A stretch of 64,000 nucleotides of DNA, taken from Xanthomonas sontii (GTDB taxonomy: Bacteria; Pseudomonadota; Gammaproteobacteria; Xanthomonadales; Xanthomonadaceae). Within the stretch, counting starts at the first letter, position 1. Every line of letters begins with the position of its first letter. The DNA lies in NCBI RefSeq assembly GCF_040529055.1, contig NZ_CP132342.1:4090001-4154000 (forward strand), given 5' to 3'. The notes under the pieces are model-generated. The model saw only the letters and a program-made list of their open reading frames with translations, made no database searches and was not told the DNA's origin. Positions 56,046 to 64,000 of the stretch are shown here, one piece after another. Made by a program: the position numbers and the translations under genes.

Positions 56046-56503
56046 GAAGCACTACTCCCATTGTTCTGGGGCAAGTCTAGTCTTCGGCCAGAGCTTGGTA
56101 CTCCTCGCCCATCGCATCCGCGGTGCAGAAGTGACTGCGTCGACCCTTGCTACTCCGTTCTGGAGCGGTCCCCTTTAAGGTGGGCTGCGATATCGAATTG
56201 ATTGCCTCCAGGGCCTAGCAGTCGGCCGGATGCTGGCCGCTTGCGCTGCTGACGACCTCGTCAGTGCCATGCCAGCAGCCAGGATCCTAGGGCTGCGACG
56301 AGAGCCATCTCTCGCGCTATCCGCCAGTCCGCTTCGCATCACGCCAACGGACGCCGCCCCCTCCCGGGGCGTTGATGCCATCCCTTCCACGGGCCACTCT
56401 GCCCACTTCTTTTCCACCGGCCAACGTCCTGTTCGCCCGCTAATGCGAGCGGACCGGCTCGCGCCCGCGTGCGCCACGGCGCACTCCCTCCAAGGAGCCA
56501 ACC
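56046..56503. other. intergenic leader region with structured RNA copy A
   Basis: The 458-bp gap is divergent between the HEPN-like and GHKL genes. It contains structured element A at 56246-56340, 163 nt before the GHKL start. Promoters for both genes must lie here. Confidence 0.5.
56246..56340 (+). ncRNA. three-hairpin structured RNA element, copy A
   Basis: Stem 1 is CTGACG-ACCT-CGTCAG (56249-56264), stem 2 GCAGCC-N10-GGCTGC (56275-56296) and stem 3 CGAGAG-CCAT-CTCTCG (56299-56314). The conserved tail CCAGTCCGCTTCGCATC follows. ATGCC joins stems 1 and 2. The stem bases differ from copies B-D but pairing is kept. Confidence 0.7.
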
Positions 56504-58075
56504 ATGACGACCATTCGACTTCAGACCAATCAGCACCGCCTGATCGCCAACCTGCGGCATGCCTTCAACCAGCGCTCGATGCTGGGAGAACTGCTCCAGA
56601 ACGCCCGCCGCGCCCAGGCGAGCGAGATCCGTGTCTACGTCACCGACGACTGCATTGCCGTCCACGACAATGGCAGCGGCATCGAAGACCTCCAATCGCT
56701 CATCCACATCGCCGAATCAGGCTGGAAGGCATCCATCCGAGAGCGTGAGAACGCCTTCGGCATGGGAGCGCTCGCCACGCTGTACTTCGGCGAACGGCTG
56801 ATGGTGCGGTCACGCGACAAGACCTTTTCCGCACGAACCGCCGATATCCTTGCCGGAGAGCCGATCGAGGTTCTCCCGGCAGATGGCGCCTGGCAGGGCA
56901 CGCAGATCCAGCTCGACGGCGTACGCTCACCAGATCGCCACGTCTTTCTGCCGGACTGGGTGCGCTCGGAAATGCGGCGACTGTGCGAGGCATTCCCGGT
57001 CAGCGTGTACGTCAATGATGTCGAAGTCCCCAGGCCCCTGGCAAAGCCCAATCTTCGATGGCGTGAAACGTCCATGGGCAAGGTATTGATCGACCTGCAT
57101 GGCGCCACGAACCAGTGGCGATGCTTCCTTCAGGGGCTGCCTATCCAAGCAGGAAGTTCGCATGCGCCGAAGCAGGTGGTCCTGCTTCCCGACGACATGG
57201 TCGCCAAGCTCCCTGATCGCCAGCATCTGCTCAACGAAACCAGCGATATTCCTCGTATCCAGGCGGCTGTGAATCAAGCCTACCGCCAAGCCTTGATGGA
57301 CGCGAAGGCCGAACTCGCCGGTCACGAGTTCGCCGAGTGGTATGCCGACGCATGCGTCATTTCCTCCAACGCCGACCTCCTCAACGATGTTCCCTTCGTG
57401 CCGCGTGCCTGGTTTCGCAACTGGAAAGATCAGCCAGCCGGGGTTTGCCGGTATTGGGAACATTACGGTGACGATGGGGTGACTTCCGCAGAGGCCATGT
57501 CGGAAGCCGGGGTCTGGCGGATCGAAGACGATGATGGCGATGTGCTTTTGTCTGAGGTGTACCTGCAGGCGGCGGACGCCTATTTGCTGGAACAACTCAA
57601 CCTGGATGCAGGTCACTGGCTTCTTCGTCTGGCACGTCCGCTCAGCGCGGAACAGATCGCGGTCAACGTCGGTGCATCACGGCATCGGGTTGAGCATCCA
57701 GGCTTGGCCGACTGGGAGGTCGCGCTGGAGCTCGTCAACTCGCTGCAGGTCGGGCTTCTCGAAGGCAGCAAGCTCTACGATGTCCCAGCCCTCCGCAAGG
57801 ATGGCACGCTGTACGTCACCACGGAGGCAGGCAGCGTCACGCGCCTGGTCAGCGACTACACCGTGGACGATCGTTACGACGAGGAGCTCGAAGACGACGA
57901 TGAAGAGACCATCCGGACCTTCATCGCCGTGGGCAGTTCCTCGTCGCCGCACCATGTGGTCGAAGCCTTGCTTCCTGACGCGCTGCGCTTCAAAGCCCAG
58001 GCCAAACTGGCAGGTGCCAGCGTGAGGCTCGCCTTCGATGCGGAAGGCAAGTTGGCATCGGTCACCTCCTCCTAG
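56504..58075 (+). CDS. GHKL (HSP90-like) ATPase of an ICE
   Basis: The 523-residue protein has an N-terminal Bergerat ATP-binding fold: N-box GELLQNARRA with Glu29 and Asn33, G1 box VHDNGSGI with Asp55, and G2 box FGMGAL (85-90). A transducer-like domain follows (to about 260), then a C-terminal part rich in acidic residues (YDEELEDDDEETIRTF). GHKL proteins include HSP90, MutL, gyrase and MORC-type proteins. This ICE family member has no known role; DNA remodelling or stress protection are options. AAGGAG precedes the ATG. Confidence 0.8.
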   Translation: MTTIRLQTNQHRLIANLRHAFNQRSMLGELLQNARRAQASEIRVYVTDDCIAVHDNGSGIEDLQSLIHIAESGWKASIRERENAFGMGALATLYFGERLMVRSRDKTFSARTADILAGEPIEVLPADGAWQGTQIQLDGVRSPDRHVFLPDWVRSEMRRLCEAFPVSVYVNDVEVPRPLAKPNLRWRETSMGKVLIDLHGATNQWRCFLQGLPIQAGSSHAPKQVVLLPDDMVAKLPDRQHLLNETSDIPRIQAAVNQAYRQALMDAKAELAGHEFAEWYADACVISSNADLLNDVPFVPRAWFRNWKDQPAGVCRYWEHYGDDGVTSAEAMSEAGVWRIEDDDGDVLLSEVYLQAADAYLLEQLNLDAGHWLLRLARPLSAEQIAVNVGASRHRVEHPGLADWEVALELVNSLQVGLLEGSKLYDVPALRKDGTLYVTTEAGSVTRLVSDYTVDDRYDEELEDDDEETIRTFIAVGSSSSPHHVVEALLPDALRFKAQAKLAGASVRLAFDAEGKLASVTSS

Positions 58076-58100
58076 CTGTCGATCCATAACCACGCCACGC

Positions 58101-58131
58101 AGGCCCCGCACTCCGATGCGGGGCCTTTTTT
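58101..58131 (+). terminator. terminator after the GHKL gene
   Basis: AGGCCCCGCA-CTCCGA-TGCGGGGCCT is a perfect 10-bp stem followed by TTTTT. It is nearly identical to the terminator after higA (59083-59112), part of a shared module boundary. Confidence 0.9.
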
Positions 58132-58209
58132 TGCCCGGAATGCGGTACAGGGCCGCATCGGATTGGACGACCACTGCCCGGCATCAGGGCGGGATGCTGG
58201 ACGCCTGTG

Positions 58210-58308
58210 TAGCTGACGCCGTCAGCGCCATGCCAGCAGCCTGGATCTCAGGGCTGCAGCGGGATTCGTCCCGCGCGATCCACCAGTCCGCCTCGCATCG
58301 GTCCGCGG
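58210..58308 (+). ncRNA. three-hairpin structured RNA element, copy B
   Basis: Stem 1 is GCTGAC-GCC-GTCAGC (58212-58226), stem 2 GCAGCC-N10-GGCTGC (58236-58257) and stem 3 GCGGGA-TTCG-TCCCGC (58259-58274). The conserved tail ends in CTCGCATC. It lies 107 nt upstream of a short leader frame and 166 nt upstream of higB. Confidence 0.75.
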
Positions 58309-58415
58309 ACAGGCGCTCTGGCAGCGTCGATGCCACATCTCAGCCGGGCCAATCGACCCGATCCGTCCATTCCGCAAGTGTTCACAGGAAAGCCTTCTTC
58401 ACAGGAGAACCACCC

Positions 58416-58478
58416 ATGCCCCTCCAACTGCAACCCTTGCAGGGTGTAAGGCATCACCTTACACTTCGTCCGTCGTGA
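58416..58478 (+). CDS. 20-codon leader frame overlapping higB
   Basis: A strong ribosome site (CAGGAGAACC) leads to ATG at 58416, encoding MPLQLQPLQGVRHHLTLRPS. The stop TGA overlaps the higB GTG (GTGA at 58475-58478). The frame also spans the operator palindrome. It may couple translation into higB, or be the 5' remnant of an ICE gene replaced by higBA. Confidence 0.5.
   Translation: MPLQLQPLQGVRHHLTLRPS
58444..58464. promoter_or_regulatory. higBA operator palindrome
   Basis: GTGTAAGG-CATCA-CCTTACAC is a perfect 8-bp dyad with a 5-nt spacer, 10 bp before the higB start. HigA-type antitoxins repress their own operon at such sites, so this is the likely operator. Confidence 0.75.
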
Positions 58479-58753
58479 TCCGGTCCTTCCGGCACAAGGG
58501 ACTTCGGGCACTGCACCAGCGAGGAGATGCGTCCGGCGTTCGCGCCGATCACGTCGCCCGCCTGCGGCGCCTCCTAGCATCCCTAGACGTCGCCAGAATC
58601 CCGTCCGACATGGATCGTCCCGGCAACCGGCTGCATCCCTTGAAGGGGAAGCTCGCCGGCCACTGGTCGGTCAGCGTCTCCGGTAACTGGCGCGTGATTT
58701 TTCGCTTCGACAGCTCCGACGTGGAGTTGGTCGATTACCTTGACTATCACTGA
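58475..58753 (+). CDS. higB: HigB-type toxin (RelE/ParE superfamily)
   Basis: The 92-residue protein starts MIRSFRHKGLRALHQRGD with GTG as start codon. DRPGNRLHPLKGKLAGHWSV and SVSGNWRVIFRF carry the basic and aromatic residues of HigB ribosome-dependent mRNA endonucleases. The toxin precedes the antitoxin, as is usual for higBA. It is translated just downstream of the leader frame. Confidence 0.92.
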   Translation: MIRSFRHKGLRALHQRGDASGVRADHVARLRRLLASLDVARIPSDMDRPGNRLHPLKGKLAGHWSVSVSGNWRVIFRFDSSDVELVDYLDYH

Positions 58754-58766
58754 GCAGGAGGCCTTC

Positions 58767-59051
58767 GTGGCTATGCACAATCCTCCCCATCCGGGTGAAG
58801 CGTTGCGCGAAGACGTGCTTCCCGCAGCCCGTCTGTCGGTGTCGGCCCTGGCCCGGCACATCTGCTATTCCCGCGGGCAGCTCTCCACGGTGCTGAACGG
58901 CCGGGCGGCCATCAGCGCGGACCTCGCCCACCGGCTCGAACTGGCGGGCCTGGGCAGCGCCCGTCAATACCTGGCCGAACAGGCGGCCTACGACCTATGG
59001 CAGGCCGAACACCGCGAGCACCCCCACATCACGCGGTTGCAACCGGCCTAG
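58767..59051 (+). CDS. higA: HigA-type antitoxin (XRE HTH)
   Basis: About 94 residues. MHNPPHPGEALREDVLPAAR is followed by an HTH (SVSALARHICYSRGQLSTVL) and NGRAAISADLAHRLE, the HigA signature. AGGAGG lies 5 nt before a GTG at 58767; the ATG at 58773 and a TTG at 58740 are alternatives. It neutralises HigB and should repress from the palindrome upstream. A strong terminator follows. Confidence 0.92.
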   Translation: MAMHNPPHPGEALREDVLPAARLSVSALARHICYSRGQLSTVLNGRAAISADLAHRLELAGLGSARQYLAEQAAYDLWQAEHREHPHITRLQPA

Positions 59052-59082
59052 TTTCTCTCCGCAAGTTCTACCCGCCCACCCC

Positions 59083-59112
59083 AAGCCCCGCATTCCGATG
59101 CGGGGCTTTTTT
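59083..59112 (+). terminator. terminator after higA
   Basis: AAGCCCCGCA-TTCCGA-TGCGGGGCTT has a perfect 10-bp stem followed by TTTTTT. It is a close copy of the one at 58101-58131. Confidence 0.9.
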
Positions 59113-59191
59113 TTGCCCGCAATACGGTCTGCGGCCGCATCGGATTGGCGGACCACCGCCGGGCATCGGGGCGGGATGCTGGACGCATGTG

Positions 59192-59290
59192 TAGCTGACG
59201 CCGTCAGCGCCATGCCAGCAGCCTGGATCTCAGGGCTGCCGCGGGACACATCCCGCGCGATCCACCAGTCCGCTTCGCATCGGTCCGCGG
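59192..59290 (+). ncRNA. three-hairpin structured RNA element, copy C
   Basis: Stem 1 is GCTGAC-GCC-GTCAGC (59194-59208), stem 2 GCAGCC-N10-GGCTGC (59218-59239) and stem 3 GCGGGA-CACA-TCCCGC (59241-59256), followed by the same tail. It is about 90% identical to copy B over roughly 150 bp, with the stem 3 loop changed. It lies 100 nt before the gene at 59391. Confidence 0.75.
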
Positions 59291-59390
59291 ACGAGCGCCC
59301 TCGTGGCGTCGATGCACTTTCATCCACGTCCTGCGGGAGCCTCTGCCCGCACTGGGCCGTGGCGCCTCGCGCATCCATAAGGATCTGCCC

Positions 59391-59603
59391 ATGCCAACGC
59401 CATCTGTCGTCGGCCACCTGGCCCTGCACTACGCCGGCAAGTTGCTGCCCCTGGAGGTGCTGCACAGCGCCGCCGGCCATTACATCGGCACGCGCGACCT
59501 CGACGGTCCCGTATCCCGTGAATCGAGCGAGTACTTCCGCAGCGAAAAAGCAGCCCAGCGCGCCCTGGAGCGCGGTGGATGGTCCCAGTTGCCCAACCCC
59601 TGA
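59391..59603 (+). CDS. small ICE protein of unknown function
   Basis: The 70-residue protein starts MPTPSVVGHLALHYAGKLLP and ends RSEKAAQRALERGGWSQLPN. AAGGA lies upstream of the ATG. The length, charge pattern and position 20 bp before the next gene suggest a real small protein of the ICE accessory module. I do not recognise the family. Confidence 0.65.
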   Translation: MPTPSVVGHLALHYAGKLLPLEVLHSAAGHYIGTRDLDGPVSRESSEYFRSEKAAQRALERGGWSQLPNP

Positions 59604-59622
59604 TCCCGTGAAGGATTCCATC

Positions 59623-60015
59623 ATGAACCTGACTCTTCCCCCGGAGGTGGCCGATCTGTTCGTGCGCGAACAGATCCACTTCGCTGCTGCACCTGAAGCG
59701 TTCTTCCAAGCCTGGAAGCGCGGTGTCGAGATTGCCGGTCCCGAGTGGTTCGGCGACGGCACGATGGAAGGGATGCGCAAGGCCACGAGCAAGTGGGACC
59801 TGCGGCCCAACCTGCTTGCCATCGGCGAAGCACTGCGCGTGCTGAGCAGCGGCCAGCGGATGTTTCTTTCCGCCATGGTGAGCTTCTACAACGCTCGCGA
59901 AGGTGCAGCCATGCTGCGCCAATGCCGGTTCGAGGGCCTCGCCGATTTCGGGGGACTCGATCTGCAAAGCAGACAGGTCATCGCCGATCTGCTGCTGAAC
60001 TACGTGGGCTGGTAA
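59623..60015 (+). CDS. ICE accessory protein of unknown function
   Basis: The 130-residue helical protein contains PPEVADLFVREQIHFAAAPE, WFGDGTMEGMRKATSKWDLR and ISLRVL-type segments such as LLAIGEALRVLSSGQRMFLS. AAGGA precedes the ATG. The motif LRPNLLAIGEALRVLSSG, repeated in style by SLALIPSPDTLTPIGEVLQV in the gene at 61770, and the shared RFEG..F (QCRFEGLADFGGL; IRFEGSCRFDKL) suggest the two are distant relatives. Function unknown. It shares a transcript with the gene at 59391. Confidence 0.72.
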   Translation: MNLTLPPEVADLFVREQIHFAAAPEAFFQAWKRGVEIAGPEWFGDGTMEGMRKATSKWDLRPNLLAIGEALRVLSSGQRMFLSAMVSFYNAREGAAMLRQCRFEGLADFGGLDLQSRQVIADLLLNYVGW

Positions 60016-60085
60016 GTCCACGCCGGCCAGGGTCCTGGCCACGAGGAACCTCCACGGCTCGCCGTGCGGTCCTCGCCTTCCTCAC

Positions 60086-60109
60086 CGGGCGCCCTGTGCG
60101 CCCGTTTTT
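60086..60109 (+). terminator. terminator after the gene at 59623
   Basis: CGGGCGC-CCTGT-GCGCCCG is followed by TTTTT, a clean intrinsic terminator. Confidence 0.88.
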
Positions 60110-60174
60110 CTGTCCACCCACAAGGGAGCCTTTCCCTTGAGGGAAGCCCCTTGTGCTTCATCAAGGAGCTTTCC

Positions 60175-60972
60175 ATGGATCCCACCATTCTTCGCGCCCA
60201 GATGCCCGCCCTGGTGCGGTCACATATCCCCTCGAACGTGCGCAGGTTCACCTACTGCATCCTCGACGGCGTGCCGAGGCCCTCTTCCCTCGGCATCACC
60301 TTCGATCCCACACCATTCGAAGGCAAGGTCGTCGCCAAGACGGCCGAGGCCATCGTCGTTAAGACGGGCCGCGCCGAGTTCGCCGTACTGGACCGGTCGC
60401 TGGTCACCAAGGACCCCGACGAGGGCGCCAATGTGCTGGTCGAGCCGTACGCAAGGCGCCGGTTCGACGGCCTGCGTGCGGATACACCGGAGCGGCGGAC
60501 GGAACGGACGGCGGACGGCACCGAGTTCGTCTCGGAAACGATGGTGCTCGGCATCGCCCACGCCAGGCTGCCCATCCCGAAACCACAATGCCCCGAGCTC
60601 GCCGCACTGATCGAACAACTGGAGGAGCTTCCGGCGCCTGACGGCTTCCGCCGCATCACGCACATGCTCGTCGATGCAGGTGCCAAGGTTTTCAGTTGGG
60701 TGGACCCGAAGCCGTCGGACATCTGCAAGACGCCTCCGACCATCACCTTCACGGTCTCGGCGGCGAAGTTCGATGGCGGCCTGCGCATCCTGTACGACCG
60801 CGGCGCAGACGCCTACGTGATCGAGTTTCTTCCCGTGGGCCAGCCCATTGACCGTGTCGAAGACGTGTACTTCGAAGAGCTCGGAAGCGTACTGGAATCG
60901 CGCCTCGACGATGGCAGTTGGCGTCGCATCCGCGTCACACCGCTGCCAGCGAGGACGTGCTCATCGGCGTGA
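60175..60972 (+). CDS. ICE protein of unknown function (265 residues)
   Basis: The protein starts MDPTILRAQMPALVRSHIPS. The first half is beta-rich (GITFDPTPFEGKVVAKTAEA, IVVKTGRAEFAVLDRSLV) and the second has PKPSDICKTPPTITFTVSAA and LEELPAPDGFRRITHMLVDA. There is no nucleotide-binding motif or membrane segment. AAGGAG precedes the ATG. It is downstream of a terminator, so it has its own promoter. In similar ICEs this kind of gene sits in the same accessory block. Family not recognised. Confidence 0.72.
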   Translation: MDPTILRAQMPALVRSHIPSNVRRFTYCILDGVPRPSSLGITFDPTPFEGKVVAKTAEAIVVKTGRAEFAVLDRSLVTKDPDEGANVLVEPYARRRFDGLRADTPERRTERTADGTEFVSETMVLGIAHARLPIPKPQCPELAALIEQLEELPAPDGFRRITHMLVDAGAKVFSWVDPKPSDICKTPPTITFTVSAAKFDGGLRILYDRGADAYVIEFLPVGQPIDRVEDVYFEELGSVLESRLDDGSWRRIRVTPLPARTCSSA

Positions 60973-61021
60973 AGCATCGGATCAACGTTAGCTTTTCAAA
61001 TTCGCTTTTCAGAAGAACATC

Positions 61022-61384
61022 ATGTCTCTTCGTTTCAAGGGCGCCGATCTGCGCCTCGTGCTCGCGGAAGCCGCCGCTCAACGCTGCAAGATCGTCTTGG
61101 TGAAGGACCACGGCGTGTACTGGCTCGCCGCGCGCGGTGCTCGCACCAGCGATGGCCGCCAGAAGCTGATCGCGTACGCGGTGGGCTGCAATCCGAACAC
61201 CGACCCGTTCGATGACTGGTGGCACACGGCGAATGTTGAACTAGGCGGCGACGACTTCGCTGAGCACATCGACCCGGACGATGGTGTGTTCGCAAAGGTT
61301 CTGGCCGGCGGGTATGACCTCGAACTGTCTGCCACACCCGAGCAGCTCACGATGCTGGCCGTTCTCTCCGAAGGCACGCACTGA
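61022..61384 (+). CDS. DUF3085-like protein, paralogue 1
   Basis: The 120-residue protein begins MSLRFKGADLRLVLAEAAAQ and contains KDHGVYWLAARGARTSDGRQ, LIAYAVGCNPNTDPFDDWW and VFAKVLAGGYDLELSATPEQ. It is clearly related to the gene at 62458 (MPLRFRGVELRPVLAEAIRE; YALGCDPRVNAFEHWW). I believe this is the DUF3085 family, known mainly from ICEs and plasmids. Role unknown. The ribosome site is weak (GAAGAA). A strong terminator follows. Confidence 0.75.
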   Translation: MSLRFKGADLRLVLAEAAAQRCKIVLVKDHGVYWLAARGARTSDGRQKLIAYAVGCNPNTDPFDDWWHTANVELGGDDFAEHIDPDDGVFAKVLAGGYDLELSATPEQLTMLAVLSEGTH

Positions 61385-61400
61385 GTTCGCTCTGCCTCCC

Positions 61401-61425
61401 AGCCCCCGCCAAGCGGGGGCTTTTT
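61401..61425 (+). terminator. terminator after DUF3085-like paralogue 1
   Basis: AGCCCCCGC-CAA-GCGGGGGCT is followed by TTTT. It is near-identical to the one at 62843-62870. Confidence 0.9.
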
Positions 61426-61503
61426 CTTTGCGGCAATGCGGCTGCCGGTCGATCGCGTTGAGGCTGGCTCGCCGACGCGATCCGCAGGACGCTCCGTGCA
61501 TGC

Positions 61504-61605
61504 CTGCCGACAGATGTCGGCGACATGCCCGGCAACCCCCGGTCTTCGAGGTTGCGCGTAGCGCCCGCTGCGTGGCCGGACCAGTTCGCTTCGCATCACT
61601 TCGCG
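61504..61605 (+). ncRNA. three-hairpin structured RNA element, copy D (divergent)
   Basis: Stem 1 is GCCGAC-AGAT-GTCGGC (61506-61521), stem 2 GCAACC-N12-GGTTGC (61532-61555) and stem 3 GCGTAGC-GCCC-GCTGCGT (61556-61573, with two G-T pairs). The tail CCAGTTCGCTTCGCATC follows. Compared with copies A-C, stems 1 and 2 change on both sides (GCTGAC to GCCGAC; GCAGCC to GCAACC) with pairing kept. It lies 164 nt before the gene at 61770. Confidence 0.72.
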
Positions 61606-61769
61606 AACGGCCTCCGATTCCTCGGGGGCGCATGCATCTTTCCACTCAACCCAGCGCGGGGCTTTGCACCTTTTCCCGCTCGACGGGCCGGTGTGCCCCG
61701 ATTCCAGTCCACCTCGCGGATAGCCATGTCCGCAGGGGCTGGCTCCGCGATCCTTCCAGGAGCCACGCT

Positions 61770-62456
61770 ATGGCGAACAACTACTACGAGGCCACCGGTG
61801 TCCTCGTTCTCAACCAAGTTACTCCGGTCATCCGTGCGCTGTTCAGCGAGTTCCGGCTGGATGCCGATTATCCCGGCAACGGCGAGGCGTACATCGCCCT
61901 CCGGTCCGACAGTTCCCCCAACTGGGACGATCTGCGCGAGACGCTGACCGACCTGGCAAGGTCGCTCGCCCTCATCCCATCACCGGACACCCTCACGCCG
62001 ATCGGTGAGGTGCTGCAGGTGCTCAGCGACCACTTCTGCGCCGACGGCAACACGGCGCTGGATTCCATGATCCAGCGGGACGACTTCGGGGACGCCGCCG
62101 ATCTGAAGGACCTGTTCCTGCTCGCCACGTGCTTCGATGACGGGCACCACCTTCGTGAGATCCGCTTCGAAGGCAGCTGCCGGTTCGACAAGCTTCGTCT
62201 GTTCGAGTTCGGTGGCGCGGGCCACTACATGAGCCGCGAGTTCGCATTGGACAGTGCGTCCAGCGACGCACTGCAACTAGGCCCTCTGATCCGCAGCGCC
62301 CTGTCGAGCAAAGACTTCGCCAGCGCAGGGATCATCGTTGCGCGCGAAGCGCTGCGGCTACTTGCCGGCATCCGAGACGCGGTCCAGCGCGATCAGGTGC
62401 AGCGCGCCGCCATCTGGAAGTTGCTGGAAGACCTCGTTGACCGGGGAGAGGAATGA
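61770..62456 (+). CDS. ICE accessory protein of unknown function (228 residues)
   Basis: The protein starts MANNYYEATGVLVLNQVTPV and contains ALFSEFRLDADYPGNGEAYI, DLARSLALIPSPDTLTPIGE and LFEFGGAGHYMSREFALDSA, with a helical C-terminus (RDAVQRDQVQRAAIWKLLED). CCAGGAGCC precedes the ATG. The layout hints at a relationship with the shorter gene at 59623. It is followed 1 bp after its stop by DUF3085-like paralogue 2, so they are cotranscribed. Function unknown. Confidence 0.75.
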   Translation: MANNYYEATGVLVLNQVTPVIRALFSEFRLDADYPGNGEAYIALRSDSSPNWDDLRETLTDLARSLALIPSPDTLTPIGEVLQVLSDHFCADGNTALDSMIQRDDFGDAADLKDLFLLATCFDDGHHLREIRFEGSCRFDKLRLFEFGGAGHYMSREFALDSASSDALQLGPLIRSALSSKDFASAGIIVAREALRLLAGIRDAVQRDQVQRAAIWKLLEDLVDRGEE

Positions 62457-62871: not shown

Positions 62872-64000
62872 GTTCTTCGGATATTTCCGTGGACTTGGAG
62901 AAGGTCCCCCTATGCTGGCACCCTTGTCATGAAGGTTGCCGGGAGGGGAGATGCTGGATCGCAAGACACTTCAGTCACTGGGGTGCTGGAAAGGGTATGA
63001 GCTAGACCGGGTGGAGTGGCCAGAGGCTGATGGTCGGACGCTGTCGCTGTATCTCAGGCCAGTGGGCAATGTCATGCATTGCGAGCAGTGCGGTGCGCTG
63101 TGCCGGCAGGTTCACGAGACGACAGTGCGCCGGGTTCGCGATCTGCCTCTGTTCGAGTACCGGGTGGTTTTGCACGTCCCTCGTCGACGGGTGCTGTGCG
63201 AGCACTGCGGGGGGCCTCGGCTGGAGAGGCTGGACTGGCTGGGGCGCTACCAGCGAGTGACGCAGCGATTCGCAGACGCATGCGAGAAGCTCTTGAGAGC
63301 CAGCAGCGTGCAGGCAGTGGCCGCCTTCTACGATTTGGGCTGGCATACGGTCAAGTCCATCGACAAGATGCGTTTGCAGGCCCGCGTGCTCGAGCCCGAC
63401 TGGTCAGGTATCCGCTATCTGGCGATGGACGAATTCGCGCTGCACAAGGGCCACCGCTACGCCACGGTCGTGGTCGATCCGATAGCCCGGCAAGTGCTAT
63501 GGATCGGCCCAGGCCGCTCACGCGAGACCGCCAGAGCCTTCTTCGAGCAAATGCCTCCGGGGGCGGCCGAACGCATCCAAGCCGTTGCCATCGACATGAC
63601 GACGGCCTACGAGTTGGAGATCAAGGCGCACTGCCCTCAGGCCGAGGTGGTCTACGACTTGTTCCACGTAGTGGCCAAGTACGGGCGGGAGGTGATTGAT
63701 CGTGTTCGAGTAGATCAAGCCAACCAGCTTCGCCATGACCGGCCGGCAAGGCGAGTCTTGAAATCCAGCCGCTGGCTGCTCTTGCGCAACCGCAGCAATC
63801 TCGCGCCCGAGCAATCGCTTCGACTCAAGGAGCTGTTGGCAGCCAACGAGCCACTGTTGTGCGTGTACCTGCTGCGCGATCAGCTCAAGCAACTCTGGTT
63901 CTATCGCAAGCCCGCGTGGGCCATTCGCGCTTGGGAACAGTGGTGCGGGCACGCCCAGGAAAGCGGGATTGCTGCGCTGCAGCTCTTTGCCAAGCGGCTG
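62872..64000 (+). mobile_element. ISL3-family insertion sequence (right part outside window)
   Basis: A transposase gene of the ISL3 family starts at 62951. The left end probably lies just after the terminator, near GGTTCTTCGGATATTTCCGT (62872-62891), but the other inverted repeat and any target duplication are outside the window, so the exact end is not fixed. Confidence 0.7.
62951..64000 (+). CDS. ISL3 family transposase (partial, C-terminus outside window)
   Basis: At least 350 residues are visible. The N-terminal zinc-binding part has HCEQCGALCRQ and RVLCEHCGGPR. A DDE domain follows (RYLAMDEFALHKGHRYATVV, AVAIDMTTAYELEIKAHCPQ, VVYDLFHVVAKYGREVIDRV), typical of ISL3. GAGGGGAG precedes the ATG. 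It appears intact as far as the window edge. Confidence 0.92.
   Translation, partial: MLDRKTLQSLGCWKGYELDRVEWPEADGRTLSLYLRPVGNVMHCEQCGALCRQVHETTVRRVRDLPLFEYRVVLHVPRRRVLCEHCGGPRLERLDWLGRYQRVTQRFADACEKLLRASSVQAVAAFYDLGWHTVKSIDKMRLQARVLEPDWSGIRYLAMDEFALHKGHRYATVVVDPIARQVLWIGPGRSRETARAFFEQMPPGAAERIQAVAIDMTTAYELEIKAHCPQAEVVYDLFHVVAKYGREVIDRVRVDQANQLRHDRPARRVLKSSRWLLLRNRSNLAPEQSLRLKELLAANEPLLCVYLLRDQLKQLWFYRKPAWAIRAWEQWCGHAQESGIAALQLFAKRL

Follow-up and report, generated by a model that had tools for sequence, protein, structure and literature searches.

What do four copies of a structured repeat do in front of genes of an integrative and conjugative element (ICE) in Xanthomonas sontii? The question is raised by a stretch of 64,000 nucleotides (contig NZ_CP132342.1, positions 4,090,001 to 4,154,000 of the forward strand), called here the window. 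An initial annotation described the four elements as a functional RNA (a leader, an anti-terminator or a regulator target) and suggested that they may belong to a 'DUF3085 RNA motif'. All four are present at the places named, and all are copies of the radC RNA, Rfam family RF01754 (class Cis-reg), whose covariance model matches them on the + strand with 61.3, 82.7, 91.9 and 100.3 bits; the Rfam gathering score is 40 bits. The Rfam boundaries of the copies are 56230–56378, 58194–58333, 59176–59315 and 61489–61635, all +. The true starts are some nucleotides earlier than first given, with stem P1 opening near 56240, 58204, 59186 and 61499. The radC RNA is a known family and has been an orphan candidate since 2010 (Weinberg 2010, PMC2864571). 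A literature search of open-licence PubMed Central full text found no experiments on any radC RNA and no paper on a radC RNA motif, leader, riboswitch or element, although literature outside that collection may differ.

That the elements are functional RNA leaders before ICE genes, as had been proposed, is strongly supported by covariation, a sense-strand wobble bias, promoter spacing and the transcripts of the related element ICEclc. As to how they act, the reading developed here is that the radC RNA is a shared 5′-terminal leader, working in cis after initiation on the stability and translation of ICE operons. We put its chances at about even.

Four copies is not the full count. The whole genome holds six RF01754 copies, 6/6 above the cut-off and all on the + strand, with the fifth (genome 4154242–4154389) and sixth (4192686–4192828) outside the window. 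The surrounding genes belong to an ICEclc/PFGI-type ICE and all fall within genome 4129700–4196329. They include a TraI_2 relaxase, ParB TIGR03764, STY4528, AcaB, a single-stranded DNA-binding protein (SSB), a topoisomerase, STY4534, TraD TIGR03754, TraC TIGR03744, TIGR03755 and RadC, and the radC gene itself stands behind the sixth radC RNA copy.

A pattern scan of GTDB genomes, using one P1 strand plus the conserved tail, gave at least 119 stretches, mostly from Beta- and Gammaproteobacteria as judged from titles; four (L034, L038, L130, L137) were dropped as chance matches by eye. A first alignment of 43 of 58 non-redundant copies produced a model with nested stems only. The model search of 100 sources returned 190 matches, and because only the best 150 (132 distinct) were aligned, the counts give too little weight to short-class and divergent copies. 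RF01754 is present in 5/299 genomes drawn from the phylum and in 145/398 drawn from the family of genome G127, compared with 0/14 control genomes in each case. With one copy as BLASTN query, 4 of 72,556 plasmid records match, all predicted conjugative and one over at least 80% of the query, and 50,697 phage records give 0 matches. A same-strand first gene with a Shine-Dalgarno-like site follows 136/150 copies; the script found none for the other 14. All copies are co-oriented in 56/56 loci that have two or more.

Genome G432 is taken as P. knackmussii B13, the carrier of ICEclc. It shows radC triplets of identical scores at two places and a 19-nt direct repeat 102,775 bp apart, and its open reading frame (ORF) stops fit the ICEclc ORF names, 12 at one offset and 11 at an offset 16 nt away.

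Fold and strand of the radC RNA

In the window, the paired changes first noted, GCAGCC/GGCTGC to GCAACC/GGTTGC and GCTGAC/GTCAGC to GCCGAC/GTCGGC, are found in the sequence, as are the three forms of stem 3. The initial annotation had staked its functional reading on covariation in a larger alignment, and this is what the 150 copies display. With a structure that includes two added pseudoknots, 93.8% of the 5859 pair cells hold standard pairs. Two-sided change is seen in 32 of the 46 pairs, versus 21.9 ± 1.5 in shuffles, with 0/500 shuffles as high. The covariation score is 0.301, against 0.143 in shuffles and at most 0.074 in slid controls. Folding one leader by minimum free energy gave no information (z = −1.76).

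The shared CCAGTCCGCTTCGCATC 'tail' of the first description is present but is not free: GTYCGC pairs with GCGRAC, and GCATC with GATGC. The first of these pairings, stem P4, is 99.7% paired, with one pair that switches between C-G (76 copies) and U-A (52); in copy 1 of the window, 1/6 pairs is broken. In pseudoknot A, the P2 loop pairs with the segment after P3, before CCAGT. Its columns are 73% paired and partly misaligned in the alignment, and it was therefore tested without alignment. In 64 representatives, loops pair better with the segment of their own copy than with segments of other copies, and 0/500 permutations reach the observed sum. Examples of the types found are TCGGTC/GACCGA, GGGTT/AACCC, GGATC/GATCC and GCGATC/GATCGT. 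Pseudoknot B, GCATC/GATGC, is 100% paired and nearly invariant: of its five pairs, one has a single two-sided change, and its support is therefore conservation and not covariation; in copy 4, 1/5 pairs is broken. These alignments support a predicted radC RNA with two pseudoknots, A by covariation and B by conservation, and a stem that is absent from the structure printed by Rfam.

Rfam RF01754 has the same sequence and most of the nested structure, to which the present model adds P4 and pseudoknots A and B. A 3-pair 3′ helix in the printed structure uses the same 3′ UGC and is replaced here by P4 and pseudoknot B; for known pseudoknots, the comparison is with the printed structure line. Rivas 2020 (PMC7657543) includes radC/RF01754 in a list of families whose database structures lack some covarying pairs, so part of the new structure may already be known.

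A short radC RNA class keeps P1–P3 and pseudoknot A and has neither P4 nor pseudoknot B. A KfrB-like gene stands behind 22 of the 24 short-class or similar copies listed, by a permissive word match that can succeed by chance (1/22 is another gene by eye), and in the other two the downstream gene runs off the locus. The ICEclc copy before ORF84835 is of the short class and has a T run after the pseudoknot-A strand. The window also has a KfrB-like gene, at 60175 (Pfam match under cut-off). No radC RNA reaches the threshold in positions 60020–60180 before it, but the masking hairpin and Shine-Dalgarno region resemble a short-class leader (79.7% over 69 nt to ICEclc), and a decayed remnant may be present. 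A 201-bp stretch before this gene is 95% identical in Xanthomonas sp. F10.

G.T and C.A pairs would arise equally often from single pair mutations if the strand were irrelevant. In 65 representatives below 85% identity, and over 38 of the 46 pairs (poor alignment or too much variation excluded the other 8), the sense strand displays 75 G.T against 18 C.A; at 75% identity (45 representatives) the counts are 50 and 11. These counts are not independent, and an alignment of nested stems fitted to an RNA model leans slightly towards wobbles. Such a G.T excess is expected of an RNA of the gene strand, and the asymmetry places the predicted fold on the transcribed strand.

Promoter motif and downstream hairpin

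An expectation-maximization (EM) search upstream of 78 non-redundant copies yields the motif cAAtnnGG-N4-ggccgGnTgCcGATT, which lies at −34 to −36 from the model start in 69/78 copies. From motif end to the first P1 nucleotide is 39–40 nt in 66 of the 68 copies scoring above 11 (78 examined), and a −10-like CcAtgCT occupies −12 to −6 from P1. Each of the six copies of the X. sontii genome has its best motif match at about the usual place, with scores of 11.0–23.6. Both the training of the motif and the counts used this one set of 78 upstream regions, which includes a few from ICEclc (L170, L171), whereas the ICEclc matches at PinrR, P67231 and UR73676 are outside the training set. The inrR promoter scores 13.0 with the same matrix. 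Its start was mapped by 5′-rapid amplification of cDNA ends (5′-RACE; Gaillard 2010, PMC2892462), and the published −35, −10 and start all follow the motif, the start 40 nt after the motif end. The ICEclc region has 21 matches above 11 and a Markov control has 11 by chance, so that single weak matches mean little and the evidence is in the fixed spacing. Because the spacing from motif to P1 agrees with that from motif to inrR start, stem P1 most likely begins at +1, a placement from spacing and not from a mapped start. The first ten positions of the RF01754 model would then be promoter DNA (−10 region).

Between GATGC and the start codon there is a second hairpin region, in which the Shine-Dalgarno sequence is often paired, e.g. 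CGTGCTCC/GGAGCACG in L027, TGGCTCC/GGAGCCA in copy 4 and ATCC/GGAT in copy 3. Mean Shine-Dalgarno accessibility is 0.108 in 62 non-redundant leaders versus 0.244 in 97 mechanically called control ORFs of the same loci (p = 3e-6), and falls below 0.2 in 69% of leaders versus 44% of controls. Compared with its own upstream shuffles (mean 0.228 overall), the leader is lower in 49/62 cases.

A terminator-like site is found 20–220 nt upstream of 50/98 copies but in only 57/490 random stretches of these loci, coding DNA included. Most copies thus look, from their sequence context, like heads of their own units, and attenuation and processive antitermination are not natural readings. Within the leaders themselves there is no clear excess of terminators, with 15/86 155-nt stretches (17%) against the same 57/490 for random 200-nt stretches (12%), and transcription attenuation was rejected on this count.

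ICEclc transcripts and the proposed action

Five radC RNAs reach the Rfam cut-off in ICEclc. Four of the five precede ORF88400, ORF84835, ORF81655 and ORF58432 (stops checked), which are the first ORFs of transcripts mapped by Northern blot and array, with stationary-to-exponential log2 ratios of 6.5, 6.3, 5.7/4.0 and 4.2, respectively (Gaillard 2010, PMC2892462). ORF81655 heads the 14.5-kb type IV secretion system (T4SS) transcript. It gave no 5′-RACE product and only weak primer extension about 250 bp upstream, although the transcript is among the most abundant (Gaillard 2010, PMC2892462). The ATG of ORF81655 is 225 nt downstream of P1, and reverse transcription would be impeded by a tightly folded 5′ end. 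Coverage upstream of ORF81655 is the highest of all, and post-transcriptional control was suggested (Sulser 2022, PMC9286271). The same paper describes raised coverage without matching reporter activity at 73676, 84835 and 89247; a radC RNA is present at two of these three sites (84835 and 89247).

The reading of the radC RNA as a cis-acting leader builds by computation on family, structure, strand, motif spacing, masking and position in ICEclc units, and extends from these to +1 at P1, an effect on stability, translational control and any recognizing factor. Each ICE operon message would open with the radC RNA as its 5′-terminal domain, the first ~140 nt. A typical unit would consist of a terminator, the shared promoter motif, +1 at P1, the compact RNA (P1–P5, two pseudoknots), a second hairpin domain masking the Shine-Dalgarno sequence, and the gene. 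A paired 5′ end should slow 5′-end-dependent decay, by which the leader or message may accumulate. Translation would begin only once the Shine-Dalgarno hairpin opens, perhaps aided by a factor recognizing the double-pseudoknot domain. A search for NusG, CsrA and ProQ genes in the X. sontii genome and G432 found none inside either ICE, so a protein partner, if any, would be a host protein or one of another kind.

A wider form of this proposal is tentative, and we consider it doubtful at present: the radC RNA as shared receptor of a post-transcriptional regulon across this ICE class. One ICE or host factor would recognize four to six messages by their double-pseudoknot 5′ ends and unmask their ribosome sites together. 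This would restrict transfer-gene expression to transfer-competent cells, or to the time of entry into a new host, and the toxin-antitoxin cassette of the window would have joined through a duplicated leader.

Several points weigh against the cis-acting leader. The accessibility contrast is drawn against mechanically called ORFs, and the covariation of the masking stem is modest: the observed sum is reached by 3/500 permutations, and many copies have no stem longer than 4 pairs. The ICEclc copy before ORF58432 has no motif where the other copies usually have it (the best score, 8.3, is at −40), and the P58432 reporter is weak and without a read step (Sulser 2022, PMC9286271). The fifth ICEclc copy is inside a mapped transcript, 89247–89746 (ratio 2.2), between the methylase ORF89746 and ORF89247. 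The strongly induced units 66625–67231 (5.8) and 91884–95213 (5.6) have no radC RNA at the Rfam cut-off; units lacking it also include weakly induced ones. The UR84835 and UR89247 reporters are not bimodal, and UR89247 is above background in all cells (Sulser 2022, PMC9286271). From these reporter results, which count against a full promoter at each copy, not every copy need have its own promoter. The low P81655 reporter signal says nothing on Shine-Dalgarno masking, since the reporters used their own ribosome site. Finally, a 27-bp motif of Sulser 2022 (PMC9286271) is reported to occur at alpA, int and traI and to be missing from 84835 and 89247. With the present matrix, 84835 and 89247 have matches above 11, and no match was seen at alpA, int or traI, so the two motifs seem to differ, a comparison of sites and not of the letters of the 27-bp motif; the '152 bp to the inrR start' of that paper remains unexplained against the present motif.

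Other functions can be considered for an RNA in this position. In processive antitermination, the RNA would modify RNA polymerase, as put does, or recruit a NusG-like factor, and long ICE operons would be fully read. The promoter-proximal place at long operons, the ICEclc T4SS transcript among them, agrees with this, as does the repetition of the element at several operons, which is the layout of ops/JUMPstart and put, where an identical element is repeated in this way. However, several radC-led units in the window are short and are followed by a terminator-like hairpin, a new promoter motif and another RNA. Terminator-like sites often precede the copies (50/98), and neither ICE carries a NusG-family gene, so that the 'anti-terminator' of the initial annotation is disfavoured and has become unlikely. 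A ligand-binding leader appears slightly less probable again. It would be a riboswitch or attenuator, with transcription or translation switched by a metabolite bound to the double-pseudoknot domain. Its appeal is in the compact pseudoknotted RNA with highly conserved single-stranded segments followed by a masking hairpin like an expression platform, and in ICEclc activation, which requires 3-chlorobenzoate metabolism and is described with an unexplained extra regulatory layer. But terminator-like sites occur in 15/86 leaders only, the first-gene clusters share no metabolic theme, and the hosts are many and different.

An equally low probability is given to a processed, stable leader that acts in trans, or that serves an RNA-binding protein as decoy, and for which the cis position is no more than the source of the RNA. 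ICEclc coverage peaks upstream of ORF81655 where 5′-RACE fails, and processing of transcripts was suspected by the ICEclc authors. Against this, 136/150 copies are followed by a same-strand gene with a Shine-Dalgarno site and the leaders share the masking trend, whereas an RNA acting in trans needs no five to six copies, each before a gene. A single-stranded DNA promoter of the Frpo/ssi kind, with leading-region genes transcribed from the incoming T-strand, is very improbable. ICE genes do have hairpins before them, ssb-like and methylase genes are close by and co-orientation is strict, and Frpo/ssi are likewise structured DNA beside conjugative-element genes. A promoter of that type is expected to fold on the template strand (PMC11541004), the opposite of the bias found here (75 to 18 for the sense strand). 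The helices are downstream of a conserved, conventional promoter-like motif, and the weak ICEclc primer extension puts a start near or above the element. As for the 'DUF3085 RNA motif', the two DUF3085 genes on which it was based are present in the window module, one slightly under the Pfam cut-off, but the attribution finds no support. Only RF01754 reaches threshold, with all four copies far over it; no DUF3085-named RNA family matches at E ≤ 5 in Rfam (presence of such a family in Rfam 15 was not checked), and 0/6 genome copies are directly before a DUF3085 gene. This identity was rejected and retains hardly any probability.

Units of the window and related systems

All features of the window given here are on the + strand, with promoter-like motifs scored by the EM-derived position weight matrix. 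Copy 1 has a weak promoter-like motif at 56173–56199 (score 11.0), and the RNA extends from the predicted +1 at stem P1 to GATGC (56240–56378). The gene that it leads, 56504–58075, encodes a 523-aa HATPase-fold protein (PF13589). An intrinsic-terminator-like stem-loop with a T run after it (58101–58126) separates this unit from copy 2, which has a motif at 58138–58164 (score 22.3) and the RNA at 58204–58333. A short hairpin, CTTCT/AGGAG at 58394–58407, was read from the sequence, not folded on its own, and could mask the Shine-Dalgarno site of copy 2. Behind copy 2 are higB and a higA-like gene, 58475–59051 (PF05015; PF13560, a weak helix-turn-helix match below the Pfam cut-off). The next start had been placed at 58475; the first start codon with a good Shine-Dalgarno site is instead 58416. 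The 20-codon ORF that begins there ends at 58478 and overlaps the higB GTG (GTGA), which suggests translational coupling.

Copy 3 is preceded by a terminator-like stem-loop (59083–59108) and a motif (59120–59146, score 23.6). Its RNA, 59186–59315, is followed by a predicted hairpin ATCC/GGAT (59373–59384) masking the Shine-Dalgarno site and by a 70-aa ORF (59391–59603), relatives of which are among the commonest first genes behind radC RNAs. Copies 2 and 3 are part of a 234-bp direct repeat (58100–58333 and 59082–59315, 88.9% identity) consisting of terminator, promoter motif and radC RNA, which flanks the higB/higA-like cassette; because of this repeat the two copies are no independent evidence of each other. 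Both terminator-like hairpins of the repeat contain GATGC, the letters of the pseudoknot B 3′ strand, probably by chance.

Copy 4 follows a terminator-like stem-loop (61401–61421) and a motif at 61434–61460 (score 12.5), with the RNA at 61499–61635. Pseudoknot A (61539–61579) pairs CCGGTC, 61539–61544 in the P2 loop, with GGCCGG, 61574–61579. Stem P4 (61584–61608) pairs GTTCGC, 61584–61589, with GCGAAC, 61603–61608, and pseudoknot B (61593–61635) pairs GCATC, 61593–61597, with CATGC, 61631–61635, which includes the broken pair. The masking hairpin, 61740–61765, joins TGGCTCC (61740–61746) and GGAGCCA (61759–61765) before a 228-aa gene (61770–62456) with no Pfam or NCBIfam match. The second DUF3085-like gene is separated from the fifth radC RNA by an ISL3-family transposase (window 62936–64000 and beyond). 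A VgrG-like spike gene and a PoNi-type immunity gene at genome 4200511–4206407, near the right part of the ICE, are possible cargo.

If the cis-acting leader is the true function, a widespread ICE family would have a second, RNA-level control of conjugation beyond the transcriptional control by BisDC and InrR. It would also offer an explanation for the failed 5′-RACE, the very high leader coverage and the RNA signal without reporter activity in ICEclc. The tie to cloned ICEclc transcripts with Northern, array and RNA-seq data makes radC RNA function directly testable, and this in a harmless laboratory strain.

The architecture of the radC RNA and its link to ICEclc appear new, being found in no paper searchable here. 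The transfer competence regulon of ICEclc (Gaillard 2010, PMC2892462; Sulser 2022, PMC9286271) belongs to the same ICE family as the element of the window, and the accessible parts of those papers name no structured leader or Rfam family. Among known RNAs, the 5′-terminal stem-loops that stabilize mRNAs of the ompA type likewise have a base-paired 5′ end at +1, as predicted for the radC RNA. Unlike these, the radC RNA is much larger, has two predicted pseudoknots and is common to several operons of one mobile element.

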